From Phycisphaerae bacterium (lineage in GTDB: Bacteria; Planctomycetota; Phycisphaerae; Phycisphaerales; UBA1924): a stretch of DNA of 5,223 nucleotides. Made by a program: the position numbers and the translations under genes. This document shows positions 1-5,223 of the stretch, piece by piece; the first letter of the stretch is position 1, and every line of letters starts with the position of its first letter. The notes under the pieces are model-generated. The model was not told the DNA's origin. It saw only the letters and a program-made list of their open reading frames with translations, and searched no databases. Location: positions 1 to 5,223 of the forward strand of contig JAEUIX010000270.1 of NCBI GenBank assembly GCA_016794945.1. The letters run 5' to 3'.

Positions 1-1675
1 GGCGCGCAAAGACGCCTCGGCGCGCCGCGGCGCCGTCGTAGGCCTCGGCCGGGCGGTCGATCATGGTCACGAGCCTGGCGGTGTCGTGCGAGTCGAGCAG
101 GTTGAACTGAACAAGCTCGGTCGCAGGGTGGTTGACGGTCGCCCTGACCAGGGCCTGAGTGAGGGCTCGGGCGCCGTACCCGCGGTCGCTCAGCCAGCGC
201 ACGACCGGCTCGGCGACGGGGTAGTTCATCTGGCCGTCGAACGCGGCGCCGCCGAAGTAGTCACGCGCGGGGAACCAGATCTCGCCGATCAGCAGCGCCT
301 CGGGGTCGATGGCCTTCACGTGAGCGCGCCAGTCGCGCCAGAAGGGCATGCCCAGGTCGGGCGCAACGTCCAGTCGCCAGCCGTCGCAGCCGCGGACCGG
401 TTCGCCATCGGCGCTGCGCGGCCGCATCCAGCGCTCCGTGACGGCCAGGACGTGCCGCTTGACGGGCGGGGCGAGATCGCCGTCGATCTGCCGCAGGGCG
501 GGCAGGCCGCCGTTGCGCCGGTCCCACCCGCGCCAGCCGATGAGCTGCCCGGCACGGAAGGGGCGCTGCCCCCCCACGATCTCATCGCCGGTGGCCAGGA
601 CGGCGTCGAACCACAGTGCGTAGGGCGAGTCGGCCCCGCGGCGCACCAGATCCTGGAACGCCCAGAACTTCGTGCCGGTGTGGTTCCAGACCCCGTCGAG
701 CACCAGGCGCATCCCGCGCCGGTGGACCGCGGGCAGGAACCGATCGACGAACCATCGGTCGGCGGCGGTCCAGGTCCAGGTCGCGGGGTCCTCGGTTTCG
801 CCCGGCTCGGCCGCGCGGGGCGCACCGTCGCCTGCCGGGCCGGCCAGCGCATCGTCGACGTGGCGGAAATCGGCGGCGTCGTACTTGTGCAGGCTGGGCG
901 AGCGGAAGATGGGCGTGAGGTAGATCCCCTCGACGCCCAGGTCGCGCAGGTCGTCGAGTCGCTGAGCGACGCCCTGCAGGTCGCCGCCGTAGCGTCGCTG
1001 GAAGATGACGTTCGACCAGGCGCCGGATCGCGAGACGAGGCGGCCGGCGTTGCCCTCTCCGGCCTCGGCCATGGCCCACGCGGCCTCGACCTCGTCGACG
1101 CTGACGCGACCCCAGGGGCTGTTCCAGGCGAGCAGTTTCGCATCGTGGTGGCGCGGGTCGTTGCCGGGCTCGCCGTTGCGGTAGCGCTCGGGCATGATCT
1201 GGTACCACACCATGCCCTTGGCCCAATCGGGCGTGCGGTGCGCCGGCTCGGGATCGGGGAGCGATTCGAACGGGCCAAGACGCCCCGCGCCGCCCGGGCC
1301 GGACCACTCGACGCGCCAGCGCGTCGGTGCGATGAGGCCGGACACGCGCGCCCGGGCGTACCGTCCCGCGTCGCCGGGTTCATCACCCCACCCGGAGGCC
1401 GGGACCAGCGGGACTCGGATCTCGCCGCGAGGGTGGTTTTCCACCACCAGCACACCGTCGGACCCGGGGGGCAGGCCGGAAACGGCCACTTCGGCCAGGC
1501 CGAGCCGATCGGACACCCCGATCCAGCGAGCCGCCGGCGGTTTGGGCGCGTCGAGGAAACAGCGAGCCTCGGAGGCGTTCGGACGCTGGAGGGTCATGCA
1601 CCAGATCGCCGCGAGCAGGCACGCGCGGATTCGCCGACCGCCGGCCTGCATGCCCGCCCCGCCGGTCCAGCGCAT
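1..1675 (-). CDS. GH13 alpha-glucan hydrolase, neopullulanase/cyclomaltodextrinase-like, C-terminus cut off by window edge
   Basis: Reading the minus strand from 1675 to the left edge gives 558 codons without a stop. The product should hydrolyse alpha-1,4 (possibly also alpha-1,6) bonds in maltodextrins or related glucans. Residues about 10-35 look like a signal peptide (GGRRIR, then a hydrophobic stretch, then an ASEA-like cleavage region), suggesting export. A small N-terminal domain follows. The catalytic barrel opens near W157 with WYQIMPERYRNG, then GIYLTPIF and HKYDAADF (H263-). All four GH13 core motifs are present: DGVWNH (327-332), GWRLDVA with nucleophile D436, GEIW with acid/base E465, and DSHD with H530 and D531. 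GIYLTPIF/HKYD and the EIW...MNYP pattern are typical of the neopullulanase group. The segment that usually reads MPKLN is GLPALR here. The exact substrate is not determinable. The start is uncertain: ATG 1675 and ATG 1651 are both possible and neither has a clear ribosome binding site. The C-terminal beta domain lies outside the window. Confidence 0.9.
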   Translation of the reverse strand, partial: MRWTGGAGMQAGGRRIRACLLAAIWCMTLQRPNASEARCFLDAPKPPAARWIGVSDRLGLAEVAVSGLPPGSDGVLVVENHPRGEIRVPLVPASGWGDEPGDAGRYARARVSGLIAPTRWRVEWSGPGGAGRLGPFESLPDPEPAHRTPDWAKGMVWYQIMPERYRNGEPGNDPRHHDAKLLAWNSPWGRVSVDEVEAAWAMAEAGEGNAGRLVSRSGAWSNVIFQRRYGGDLQGVAQRLDDLRDLGVEGIYLTPIFRSPSLHKYDAADFRHVDDALAGPAGDGAPRAAEPGETEDPATWTWTAADRWFVDRFLPAVHRRGMRLVLDGVWNHTGTKFWAFQDLVRRGADSPYALWFDAVLATGDEIVGGQRPFRAGQLIGWRGWDRRNGGLPALRQIDGDLAPPVKRHVLAVTERWMRPRSADGEPVRGCDGWRLDVAPDLGMPFWRDWRAHVKAIDPEALLIGEIWFPARDYFGGAAFDGQMNYPVAEPVVRWLSDRGYGARALTQALVRATVNHPATELVQFNLLDSHDTARLVTMIDRPAEAYDGAAARRGVFAR

Positions 1676-1833: not shown

Positions 1834-2775
1834 ATGGAAGGTTGTCGCCGGATCGTGAAGCGGGCGTTCACGCTCATCGAACTGCTGGTGGTGATCGCGA
1901 TCATCGCGCTGCTGGTGGGGATCCTGCTGCCGGCGCTGGCCAGCGCCCGGGCCAACGCGCGCCAGGCGGCGTGCCTGAGCAACGTGCGGCAGATGGGCCT
2001 GTCGATGACGCAGTACGCCAACGACTTCAAGTCGTGGTACCCGCTGGTTCCGTTCACGGCGGCGGCGCGGGCCGCGTTCACGAACCCCAACCCGGCGTCG
2101 CGGTACCTGGACTTCCAGTACGTGATCGGCGGCGTGTCGGGGCTGTTCAGCCTGTACCAGAACCCCGACGGGGGCGAGGGAACGCCGACGGGCGATTTCG
2201 GCTACGTGGTGGGCGGCACGCCGGGGGTGCAGCAGTACGCCGACGGGAACCGCAACCCGATCATGGGCGGGTACCTGGACGGGTTCGGGCTGCTGGTGTG
2301 CAACAACGACCGGGAGGATCGGGTGGCCGTGAACAACGGGTCGTACACCCCGTCGTCGGCCATCGCGCTGCCCGCGGCCAAGAGCCGGATCCCCGCCGTG
2401 CCGGCGACGACGTTCCAGATCGCCCAGTACAACATCTCGTACCTGTACATCGCGGGGTTCAAGACGGACGAGGCGAACATCCTCAAGCCCGCGCCGCTGT
2501 GGGGCGACGAGACGAACGCGCCGGACCTGTCGACGCGCGCGTGGTACTACGGAGCGCAGGACCGTCCGAGCGGCGAGAACATCCGTCCGGGCTACTACTA
2601 CCGCTGGGACAACCACAAGGACGGGGCCAATTTCGTGTTCACCGACGGGCACGGCGACTTCCTGAAGGGCAACGTGCAGGAGACGTTCTTCTCCCCGCCG
2701 GCGCAGAGCACCAACAGCCAGTCCGTGAACGTCATCGACCAGTTCCGAAGCAACCGGCTGCAGACGATCGACTGA
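1834..2775 (+). CDS. Prepilin-like protein with N-terminal methylation motif and H-x9-DG motif
   Basis: This complete 313-residue protein has a type IV prepilin / type II pseudopilin N-terminus. A short basic leader ([11 protein letters not shown]) is followed by FTLIELLVV (residues 12-20), with the conserved Glu at position +5 of the mature chain. The hydrophobic helix continues to about residue 35 and then [21 protein letters not shown], the usual amphipathic extension. The C-terminal part contains an exact H-x9-DG motif (H261, D271-G272). Such proteins are inserted in the inner membrane, cleaved by a prepilin peptidase and assembled into pilus-like fibres; in Planctomycetota they occur in very many copies of largely unknown role. 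The residue before the cleavage point is Ala11 rather than the usual Gly, so processing may be less efficient. No other pilus or secretion genes are nearby. The product is secure at family level, the biological role is not. Confidence 0.9.
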
Positions 2776-2817: not shown

Positions 2818-4374
2818 GTGCCGCCCGACGCGCAGGACCAACCCGCCCACGCCGCACGCGCCGACGCCGGCGCACGGGCGCGACCCGCCCGGCCGTGGTG
2901 GCTGCGCCTGATCGAGGTGCAGGAGGTTGGCCTGCTGCTGGTGGTCGCGCTGTTCGTGGTCGGCCTGACGCTGGCGACGCCTTGGATCCCCCGCCCCGAG
3001 CGCACCGAGGTCCCCGCCGGCGCCGCCGTCGCCGAGCGCGACGGCGTCATCACGGTGACCGCGGCCGGCGGCGGCGCCGAGGCGTACCGGGTTGCCGACG
3101 GCTGGCGCGTGACGGAGCGGCTCGGCCGCGCGTTCCTGGAGCGGCGCGAACGCACCGACGTGCCCGCCGGCGCCGCCGTCACCGAGGTGCCCGCGGGGTT
3201 CCGCATCGTCGCGCCGGGCAAGCCCGACCTGCTGCTGCCGGCGGCCGACGGCTGGGAACCCGCCCGCGACGGCGGGGTCGATGAAGTCCGGCGCACCACC
3301 ATCACGGGCGACACCGAGCGGCACCGCGCCGAGGGTGGCGTGCGCATCGAGCCGGTGCGCCCGGCGTACGTGGTCGAGCCCGCCGGCGGCGGCCGGCGCG
3401 TCTACCCCGCCGACGACGGGTGGCAGTTCGTCGAGACCGCCGACGGCCGCCGGACCATCGAGCGCGACCCCCGCGTCAACAAGTTCCTCAACAAGGACAA
3501 CCTCAGCCTGGTCGCCACCGCCGCGTCGTTCATCGCCATCATGGCCGTCGGGATGACGTTCATCATCATCCTGGGGGGCATCGATCTGTCGGTGGGCGCG
3601 ACGTACGCGCTGGCGGCGGTGGTGGGCGCCTCGGTGCTGCGGGTCGCGGCGACCGGGGGAGGCGACCTGTCGGCGTGGCTCGCGGTGCCGCTGGGGCTGG
3701 CGGTCTGCTGCGGGGTGGGGGCGCTGTGCGGGCTGATCAACGGCGCCGCGACCGTCGGCCTGAAGGTGCACCCGTTCATCATCACGCTGGGGGGCATGGC
3801 GGTCTACCGCGGGGTGGCGTTCGTCATCAGCCAGGGCCTGTCGATCACGGGCTTCCCGCCGGCGTACCAGGGCACGATCCGCGCGTCGGTGGGCGGCATC
3901 AACCCCCTGCCGATGCTGGTGATGCTCCTGGTCGGCCTGGCGGGGGCGTTCGTCGCGGCGCGGACGGTCTTCGGGCGGCGCACCTTCGCCATCGGCGGCA
4001 ACGAAACGGCGGCGCGGTACGCGGGCATCCCCGTCGGGCGCACCAAGATCCTGCTGTTCACGCTCTGCGGCGCGCTGGCCGGTCTGTCGGCGGCCATGGC
4101 CCTGGGCTATTACGGCGCGGGCTCCTCGGCCGACGGCACGGGATACGAGCTCGACGTGATCGCGGCGGCGGTGGTGGGCGGCGCATCGCTCTCGGGCGGC
4201 CGCGGGTCGGCCCTGGGGGCGGTGCTGGGGGCCCTGATCATCCAGCTCATCAACAACGGCTTCGACGTGCTGGGGATCGACTCGAATTACCGTCAGATCG
4301 TCATCGGCCTGGCCATCGTTCTGGCCGTGGTGGTCGACCAGGCCAAGCAGCGGGTGCTGGCCCGCCGCCGGTAG
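2818..4374 (+). CDS. Sugar ABC transporter permease (RbsC/CUT2 type) with a large periplasmic insert
   Basis: This complete 518-residue membrane protein belongs to the branched-chain/ribose permease superfamily (BPD_transp_2). It should form the channel of an importer taking a sugar from the binding protein encoded next. Family hallmarks are IMAVGMTF...GGIDLSVGATYAL (241-264), HPFIITLGGMAVYRGV (318-333), GGNETAARYAGI (393-404), TGYELDVIAAAVVGGASLSGG (441-461) and LINNGFDVLGI (477-487). The first membrane helix is at about 34-54. RbsC-type proteins are about 320 residues and pass from helix 1 to helix 2 through a short loop. Here residues about 60-220 are an inserted soluble region of three repeated units, which accounts for the extra length. 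GTG 2818 is the only start codon between the upstream in-frame stop (2773) and the first helix. It has no Shine-Dalgarno site, so it is probably leaderless. No ATPase gene adjoins it. Substrate unknown; ribose, galactose, xylose or another monosaccharide is plausible. Confidence 0.92.
   Translation: MPPDAQDQPAHAARADAGARARPARPWWLRLIEVQEVGLLLVVALFVVGLTLATPWIPRPERTEVPAGAAVAERDGVITVTAAGGGAEAYRVADGWRVTERLGRAFLERRERTDVPAGAAVTEVPAGFRIVAPGKPDLLLPAADGWEPARDGGVDEVRRTTITGDTERHRAEGGVRIEPVRPAYVVEPAGGGRRVYPADDGWQFVETADGRRTIERDPRVNKFLNKDNLSLVATAASFIAIMAVGMTFIIILGGIDLSVGATYALAAVVGASVLRVAATGGGDLSAWLAVPLGLAVCCGVGALCGLINGAATVGLKVHPFIITLGGMAVYRGVAFVISQGLSITGFPPAYQGTIRASVGGINPLPMLVMLLVGLAGAFVAARTVFGRRTFAIGGNETAARYAGIPVGRTKILLFTLCGALAGLSAAMALGYYGAGSSADGTGYELDVIAAAVVGGASLSGGRGSALGAVLGALIIQLINNGFDVLGIDSNYRQIVIGLAIVLAVVVDQAKQRVLARRR
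3001..3036 (+). repeat. Direct DNA repeat, copy 1 of 2
   Basis: These 36 bp match 3151-3186 at 33 positions, exactly 150 bp away. The three differences give Glu64/Asp114, a silent Val change, and Ala/Thr at residues 72/122. The high nucleotide identity suggests that units one and two of the permease insert arose by a fairly recent in-frame duplication of 50 codons, or are kept alike by gene conversion. Confidence 0.85.
3151..3186 (+). repeat. Direct DNA repeat, copy 2 of 2
   Basis: This is the second copy of the 36-bp segment, opening unit two of the permease insert. Beyond these 36 bp the two units diverge quickly at DNA level but keep the ADGW spacing. Confidence 0.85.
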
Positions 4375-4494: not shown

Positions 4495-5223
4495 ATGTCC
4501 ATCGCCCGCACAGGTCTGTTCGCCCTCGCCGCGGTGCTGACCACCGCCGCCGCCGTCATCGGCGCGTCGGTCCAACCCGCCGGCAAGGCCCCGGCCAAGC
4601 CCGCCAAGAAGTCGTACGTCATCGGCCTGGTGGCCAAGAGCAACTCCAACCCCGTGTTCATCGCGGCCCGGACGGGCGCGAACGACGCGGCCAAGGAGAT
4701 CGGCAAGCAGTACGGCATCGAGATCAAGATCGACTGGCGCACGCCGGTCAGCGAGGACGGCCAGAAGCAGGCCGAGTTCATCGAGCAGCTGGTCGCCGCG
4801 GGCGCCGACGGCATCGCGGTCAGCGCTTCGGACGCCGCGAAGCTCAAGACCGCGATCGACGCGGCCGACGCCAAGGGCGTTCCGGTGGCGACCTTCGACT
4901 CGGACGTGCCGGGCTCCAAGCGGTTCGCGTACTACGGCACGGACGACTTCGCCTGCGGCCAGCAGGTCGCGGCCGAACTGGCCAGGGCGATGGGCGGCAA
5001 GGGCGTGGTCGCGATCCTGGCGGGCAACCCCAACGCGCCGAACCTGCAGGCGCGGGTGCGCGGGGTGAAGGAGGGCCTGGCGAAGTTCGCCGACATCAAG
5101 ATCCTCGACACGTACTACCACCCCGAGACGCCGCAGGACGCGGTCTCCAAGGTCGAGCAGGTGATGGCGGCGAACCCGCAGATCACCGGCTGGGCGATGG
5201 TCGGCGGCTGGCCGCTGTTCACC
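4495..5223 (+). CDS. Periplasmic sugar-binding protein of an ABC importer (RbsB-like), C-terminus cut off by window edge
   Basis: The first 243 codons are present and open to the right edge. Residues 1 to about 24 are a signal peptide (SIART, then a hydrophobic Ala/Leu run ending near GAS-VQ), so the protein is exported. The rest matches the periplasmic-binding-protein-like fold of ribose/autoinducer/rhamnose binders (Peripla_BP_4). YVIGLVAKSNSNPVF (41-55) is the first strand and ligand loop, AAGADGIAVS (101-110) and GVPVATFDSD (128-137) follow, YYGTDD is at 146-151, and VVAILAGNPNAPN (171-183) leads to QARVRGVKEGL (185-195), equivalent to the ARxRG ligand segment of RbsB. Asp135 occupies the position of the sugar-contacting Asp of RbsB. 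In the C-lobe, GGW (237-239) stands where RbsB has the Asn-Asp pair, so the ligand may differ from ribose. It is encoded directly after the permease and should deliver the ligand to it. Confidence 0.92.
   Translation, partial: MSIARTGLFALAAVLTTAAAVIGASVQPAGKAPAKPAKKSYVIGLVAKSNSNPVFIAARTGANDAAKEIGKQYGIEIKIDWRTPVSEDGQKQAEFIEQLVAAGADGIAVSASDAAKLKTAIDAADAKGVPVATFDSDVPGSKRFAYYGTDDFACGQQVAAELARAMGGKGVVAILAGNPNAPNLQARVRGVKEGLAKFADIKILDTYYHPETPQDAVSKVEQVMAANPQITGWAMVGGWPLFT

Follow-up and report, generated by a model that had tools for sequence, protein, structure and literature searches.

To our knowledge, MalF is the main example of a sugar permease with a large periplasmic domain, and Pfam contains a model of that domain, P2. 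In the passages of the literature that describe it, P2 spans residues 91-271 of MalF, with one segment contacting MalE (PMC3150292), and is a large periplasmic domain that belongs to a single lineage of MalF (PMC2246101). The Thermotogales MalG1 and MalG2 proteins likewise have a large, lineage-specific hydrophilic region in a sugar permease, although this region belongs to another subunit of a CUT1 system and the corresponding passages of that paper describe no copy-number series for it (PMC2246101). In GlnPQ, the tandem units are substrate-binding domains.

Here we describe an insert in a CUT2 permease encoded within the window, by which we mean the whole stretch of 5,223 nucleotides of Phycisphaerae DNA that was analysed. 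Like P2 as those passages present it, the insert would be a periplasmic domain that is restricted to one lineage, comparable in size and placed between membrane helices of an ABC permease for sugars. P2, however, belongs to a CUT1 permease, in which it separates helices 3 and 4; it is about 180 residues long and has no tandem units in the descriptions concerned, whereas the window insert follows hydrophobic segment 1 of a BPD_transp_2 permease and consists of three units. Unlike those of GlnPQ, these units are of about 55 residues, match no substrate-binding family and are accompanied by a separate gene for a substrate-binding protein (SBP). The locus shares with E. coli RbsC and characterised CUT2 permeases the family of its core and a Peripla_BP_4 SBP as neighbour; in two related loci (L002 and L003), a two-ABC-domain ATPase gene beside the SBP gene extends the likeness. 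A domain in the periplasmic loop of a sugar permease is of a known kind, of which the insert would be a variant.

Tandem units in the window permease

The permease gene starts with GTG and was assigned to the CUT2 (RbsC-type) group from its Pfam and NCBIfam matches (Table 1). A preliminary description had read it as a 518-residue RbsC-type permease with a canonical membrane core around the insert, and both points are borne out. The closest fetched locus, L001 (titled Phycisphaeraceae bacterium), and the database protein P0002 are each 91% identical to the window permease and keep its start and N-terminus. In NCBIfam, the protein comes closest to models of sugar permeases (ribose, allose, arabinose, galactose and others) and stays under the cut-off of each; no named CUT2 equivalog (for ribose, allose, arabinose or another sugar) gave more than 183.9 bits, against a cut-off of 398. 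The best stretch begins at residues 220-236, past the insert, in eight of nine NCBIfam sugar or autoinducer permease models, and at residue 363 in GguB. The gene 3' of the permease encodes a Peripla_BP_4 SBP, relatives of which occur in the fetched loci. Together, the permease and the genes around it mark this as a CUT2 sugar importer locus. The best NCBIfam match of the alpha-amylase-family gene, again under cut-off, is maltodextrin glucosidase.

Table 1. Positions of genes and permease features in the window
Feature	Nucleotides	Strand	Evidence
Alpha-amylase-family gene, cut by window start, divergent from pseudopilin gene	2-1675	-	NCBIfam match
DUF1559 pseudopilin-like gene, conserved upstream neighbour	1834-2775	+	N_methyl and SBP_bac_10
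CUT2 (RbsC-type) permease with insert, 518 residues	2818-4374	+	ORF, Pfam, NCBIfam
Hydrophobic segment 1, residues 37-55	2926-2982	+	Hydropathy peak 2.44
Unit 1 (U1), residues 57-114, ADGW at 93-96	2986-3159	+	64.2 bits; 39.1 with held-out profile
Unit 2 (U2), residues 107-164, ADGW at 143-146	3136-3309	+	52.7 bits; 29.2 with held-out profile
Unit 3 (U3), residues 163-221, DDGW at 199-202	3304-3480	+	49.5 bits; 14.5 with held-out profile
Membrane core BPD_transp_2, conserved, residues 229-503	3502-4326	+	Pfam E 5.5e-45
SBP gene, Peripla_BP_4, cut by window end, proposed partner	4495-5223	+	E 2.9e-46

Across residues 57-221, a unit of about 55 residues occurs three times in tandem. In local BLOSUM62 comparisons, U1 scored 73 with U2 and 61 with U3, and neither score was matched in 5,000 shuffles; the U2/U3 score of 38 was reached by 111 of 5,000 shuffles, so this pair is weak taken alone. 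When the insert was split blindly, the parts scored 77, which none of 500 shuffles reached (maximum, 60). A held-out profile, built from 54 single-unit loops with the window excluded, found three units each in the window, L001, L002 and L003, and the window units scored above the top of 380 shuffled loops (6.7 bits). Some units elsewhere lie near this noise level (6.7 bits for unit 3 of L003 and 6.2 bits for unit 2 of L060), and several units of the longest loops, of 305-309 residues, reached just 2-9 bits. At the DNA level, U1 and U2 have 45 nucleotides in common at 87% with a spacing of 150. Chance resemblance of the DGW stretches was considered and is ruled out by the shuffles and the held-out profile. 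The threefold repeat first reported, with DGW motifs at the residues given for them, therefore stands; the insert does lie at the proposed nucleotides 3001-3471, but this extent is slightly short, as the profile matches begin and end outside it.

The insert comes directly after hydrophobic segment 1, and hydropathy analysis found no hydrophobic segment within residues 58-220. By eye, about five hydrophobic segments, some overlapping in the plot, separate it from a conserved loop near residues 387-410, which from BtuC/RbsC topology we take to be the cytoplasmic contact for the ATPase. An odd number of segments between the two would put the insert on the periplasmic side. Hence, the segment count and the RbsC/BtuC topology support the periplasmic location predicted earlier and most likely place the insert in the first periplasmic loop.

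Conservation and alternating hydrophobic columns suggest that the unit is probably a small beta fold. In an alignment of 298 unit matches, partial ones included, one Gly is 95% conserved and is followed by an aromatic column (W, Y or F in at least 99%); a Y/F column reaches 88% and an Arg 85%. Mean Chou-Fasman values (0.98 for beta and 1.01 for alpha) do not favour beta. Residues 58-220 contain no Cys, 24 Arg, 1 Lys and 28 Asp or Glu. Comparison of the window with L001 gave a dN/dS of 0.17 for the insert (bootstrap range, 0.10-0.27) versus 0.05 for the core, with GC3 of 0.963 and 0.966; the insert is under purifying selection.

The insert is a new tandem-repeat domain with no match in the family libraries searched, in keeping with the preliminary description, whose author knew of no described family with this insert. 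Taken alone, it matched no Pfam family at E 1, P2 included, and no NCBIfam family. When 42 units were compared with Pfam, seven families each matched a single unit at E ≤0.1, and no SBP family was found by Pfam in the insert or in these units. PDB sequences gave weak unit matches, the best being ribosomal protein L6 (E 0.024), which resembles the PxG-V...V part of the unit over 24 positions and is read as chance or a convergent hairpin. The permease profile matched no solved structure at E 1; three antibody chains found with the permease as a single sequence (E 0.41-0.87) were taken as chance. The insert alone had no similar-sized protein at E 10 among 7,998 candidates, and a search of the insert region with whole-protein length limits returned solely the window and P0002. 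As known relatives of the L002 and L003 type were missed, such insert-alone searches are insensitive. The literature searched, whose coverage leaves out most subscription journals, contained no account of the insert.

A copy-number series within one permease clade

We compared 278 permeases, of which 159 were distinct sequences from loci (window included) and 119 were database proteins. The sources were 43 loci from genome contigs, 397 genomes of the class (220 with a match at E 1e-10), 400 genomes of the order (103 of them matching at E 1e-75) and, from 4,971 database proteins, the 120 best. These 120 were found with a profile mostly from unit-bearing permeases, so the class proportions among them are biased; several protein rows nearly duplicate locus rows, and rows are not equal to species. 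L003 is titled Isosphaera and L004 Planctomycetaceae, and both fall within the order search of L001's genome. The loop was measured from segment 1 to a conserved NKFLN-like motif, and classes were assigned by length.

The 278 permeases fall into discrete classes: 75 rows have loops of 11-37 residues without a unit, 125 have loops of 59-92 residues with one unit, 57 have 104-131 residues with two, 14 have 168-179 residues with three and 4 have 305-309 residues with four to five. Among the 275 classed orthologues, no loop measured 38-58, 93-103, 132-167 or 180-304 residues. A unit profile (>7 bits) that was trained partly on the same rows, with the held-out profile as the independent check, agreed with the length class in 75/75 rows without a unit, 114/125 with one, 56/57 with two and 14/14 with three, and found 4, 4, 5 and 5 units in the four longest loops. 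The 11 rows of the one-unit class without a profile match may not carry a unit, and in loops of 87-90 residues the match is mostly partial. Three rows were left unclassed by hand: L018, which is cut at a contig end, and L179 and L195, which by length alone (114 and 176 residues) would be two- and three-unit but have no unit by profile. These last two, both clade members, have other long insertions at the same loop site. Two one-unit permeases (L039, 1349-2752, and L040, 3-1358) have frames lengthened by extra sequence further along the core.

The feature is a copy-number series (0, 1, 2, 3 and 4-5 units) and not one odd insert. The ordinary short-looped relatives that the preliminary description had in mind do exist, as the 75 rows at 11-37 residues attest. 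Its picture of a single odd protein does not survive, for arrays of one, two, three or four to five units are common among orthologues from the same order. The loop that it took to be peculiar is shared by related organisms, but not as a named domain.

A FastTree tree was made from the permease cores with the loop removed and P0001, which equals the window, omitted. All classed unit-bearing rows lie within one clade of 222 rows (support, 100), made up of 125 one-unit, 57 two-unit, 14 three-unit and 4 five-unit rows, 20 without a unit and 2 unclassed. Of the 56 rows beyond this clade, 55 have no unit and one is unclassed. The fewest changes on the tree were 16 over five states, 11 between none and any, and 4 between at most one and at least two, so that expansion past one unit took at least four changes. 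The window groups with L001 and P0002 in a clade (support, 98) whose 52 rows have two, three or five units. Seven further three-unit rows (P0111, P0112, P0115, P0116, P0117, P0119 and P0120) form a second group, which lies apart from the window next to a row without a unit (support, 98). Inner branches in part have supports of 20-58, so three units may have arisen once or several times near the window. Against ten chosen two-unit relatives, whose last pieces are often the longer, U1 never scored lower with the first unit than with the last (10/10, one tie), U3 scored better with the last in 9/10, and U2 scored better with the first in three and the last in seven. As U1 resembles a first unit and U3 a last, the window array reads as a two-unit array with a middle copy added.

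In the rows examined, the unit is confined to one permease clade. A scan of the 397 class genomes with the unit profile, in which at most 16 first-look candidates were scored per genome, yielded 32 matches at E ≤0.01. Fourteen were in the orthologous permease of nine genomes (13 below 1e-5 and one at 6.3e-4); the other 18, at 7.2e-4 to 0.01, were taken as chance, although about four were expected. The known one-unit loops L050, L053 and L056 were missed by this search, so absence of the unit elsewhere is weakly supported. Relatives from Verrucomicrobia frequently have loops of 25-37 residues that by eye resemble one or two hairpins, which suggests that units may have grown from hairpins. Some database titles look wrong: L041 is titled Klebsiella pneumoniae, L014, L015, L025, L026 and L043 are titled Akkermansia muciniphila, and L016 has a near-identical loop under Pedosphaera, while all seven permeases resemble those of Verrucomicrobia metagenome-assembled genomes.

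Neighbouring genes and the possible role of the units

By motif, and with short flanks included, an SBP gene lies downstream in 82 of the 159 distinct loci. The ATPase gene is outside the window; in two genomes (G001 and G004) the best two-domain ATPase match is on a different contig. In the loci from these genomes (L244 and L243, respectively), the ATPase contig differs from that of the permease and a matched frame contains a stop, perhaps an assembly error. Among loci with at least 1,000 nucleotides upstream, 73 of the 101 in the clade have a pseudopilin-like gene, recognised by motif, immediately upstream, as against 0 of 49 outside the clade. This gene is of the DUF1559 kind, a large paralog group with 68 members in Planctopirus limnophila according to the part of PMC10632474 that treats it. 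The pseudopilin and the CUT2 importer may form one conserved operon, with or without loop units. Of the classed clade loci whose upstream sequence was long enough, 99 in all, 80 have at least one unit, and 17 of the 19 loci with no unit also have the upstream pseudopilin-like gene. Since these unitless loci keep their neighbour, the importer can do without the unit.

The preliminary description had suggested capture of the binding protein, contact with the cell wall or sensing of substrate as possible roles. We tentatively favour a reading in which the probably beta-rich tandem units of the first periplasmic loop contact the adjoining SBP in the manner of MalF P2; this is possible but short of probable. 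The array would stand on the periplasmic face of the permease and contact the SBP encoded by the next gene, which might then be held or guided at the pore as P2 does for maltose-binding protein, and more units would make a longer or multi-site platform. The insert would work like P2 without being P2 itself, and the contact step is drawn from this analogy. We count in favour of SBP contact the adjacency of the two genes and the precedent of P2, as set out in the relevant part of PMC3150292, and against it the 19 unitless loci, 17 of them with the usual upstream gene. A bolder form of the proposal, which we hold more doubtful, is that the CUT2 importers of one bacterial order have a copy-number-tunable periplasmic docking array of one to about five units, independent of P2 and lengthened several times, that holds the SBP at the pore. 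Covariation in 26 one-unit loci does not single out the SBP: loop and SBP distances correlate once core and pilin distances are taken into account (r 0.28, p 0.002), but SBP and pilin distances do so equally given core and loop (r 0.285, p 0.001), so a shared residual signal would explain the former equally well. The loop-core correlation given SBP and pilin was 0.01. A simple-motif search for an SBP lipobox showed no clear link with unit number (13/32 with no unit, 31/40 with one, 3/5 with two and 0/3 with three).

It is also conceivable, if doubtful, that the loop is a tolerated ornament in which hairpins and then whole units were gained and lost without a specific partner, under weak selection for folding. 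Members with none, one or several units are interspersed on the core tree, where none and any are separated by 11 changes or more, and have the same upstream neighbour; L179 and L195 fill the same place with other long loops; the conserved unit positions look structural; and the dN/dS of the insert is three times that of the core. The dN/dS of the insert is nevertheless 0.17 and at most 0.27 by the bootstrap, and the retention of at least one unit in 80/99 loci also speaks against an ornament. As the tests of SBP contact are weak and unitless loci have the same neighbour, this alternative comes close behind SBP contact. It is rather unlikely that the array is instead a spacer or binds peptidoglycan or a periplasmic polymer and so fixes the importer in place; its length does vary by whole units and it has no catalytic-looking conserved residues, but Pfam gave no match of any kind, wall-binding families included, and the sequence holds no evidence of a ligand.

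Sensing of substrate, in which the units themselves would bind sugar and adjust transport, seems improbable. The conserved aromatics could, by analogy, stack on sugars, but their positions resemble a hydrophobic core and, one Arg aside, there is no conserved polar pocket. We give still less credence to docking of the upstream-encoded DUF1559 pseudopilin, which would link a fibre to the importer. The position of that gene, so often directly upstream within the clade and never outside it, is what recommends this idea. However, the gene is found at nearly all the unitless clade loci and is absent by motif from 26 of 80 unit-bearing ones, the loop-pilin correlation given core and SBP is 0.07 (p 0.12), and a test of independent pairs, resting on 3 supported pairs only, has no power. 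A tie between the array and the pseudopilin is therefore unsupported by either correlation or gene distribution.

In summary, one orthologous permease exists naturally in 0-, 1-, 2-, 3- and 4-5-copy forms, commonly beside the same kind of SBP. This natural copy-number series is more interesting than a single insert, and it would add a new domain family for the permeases of Planctomycetota. The series is a ready-made set for asking whether a permease-borne domain alters SBP capture or transport rate.
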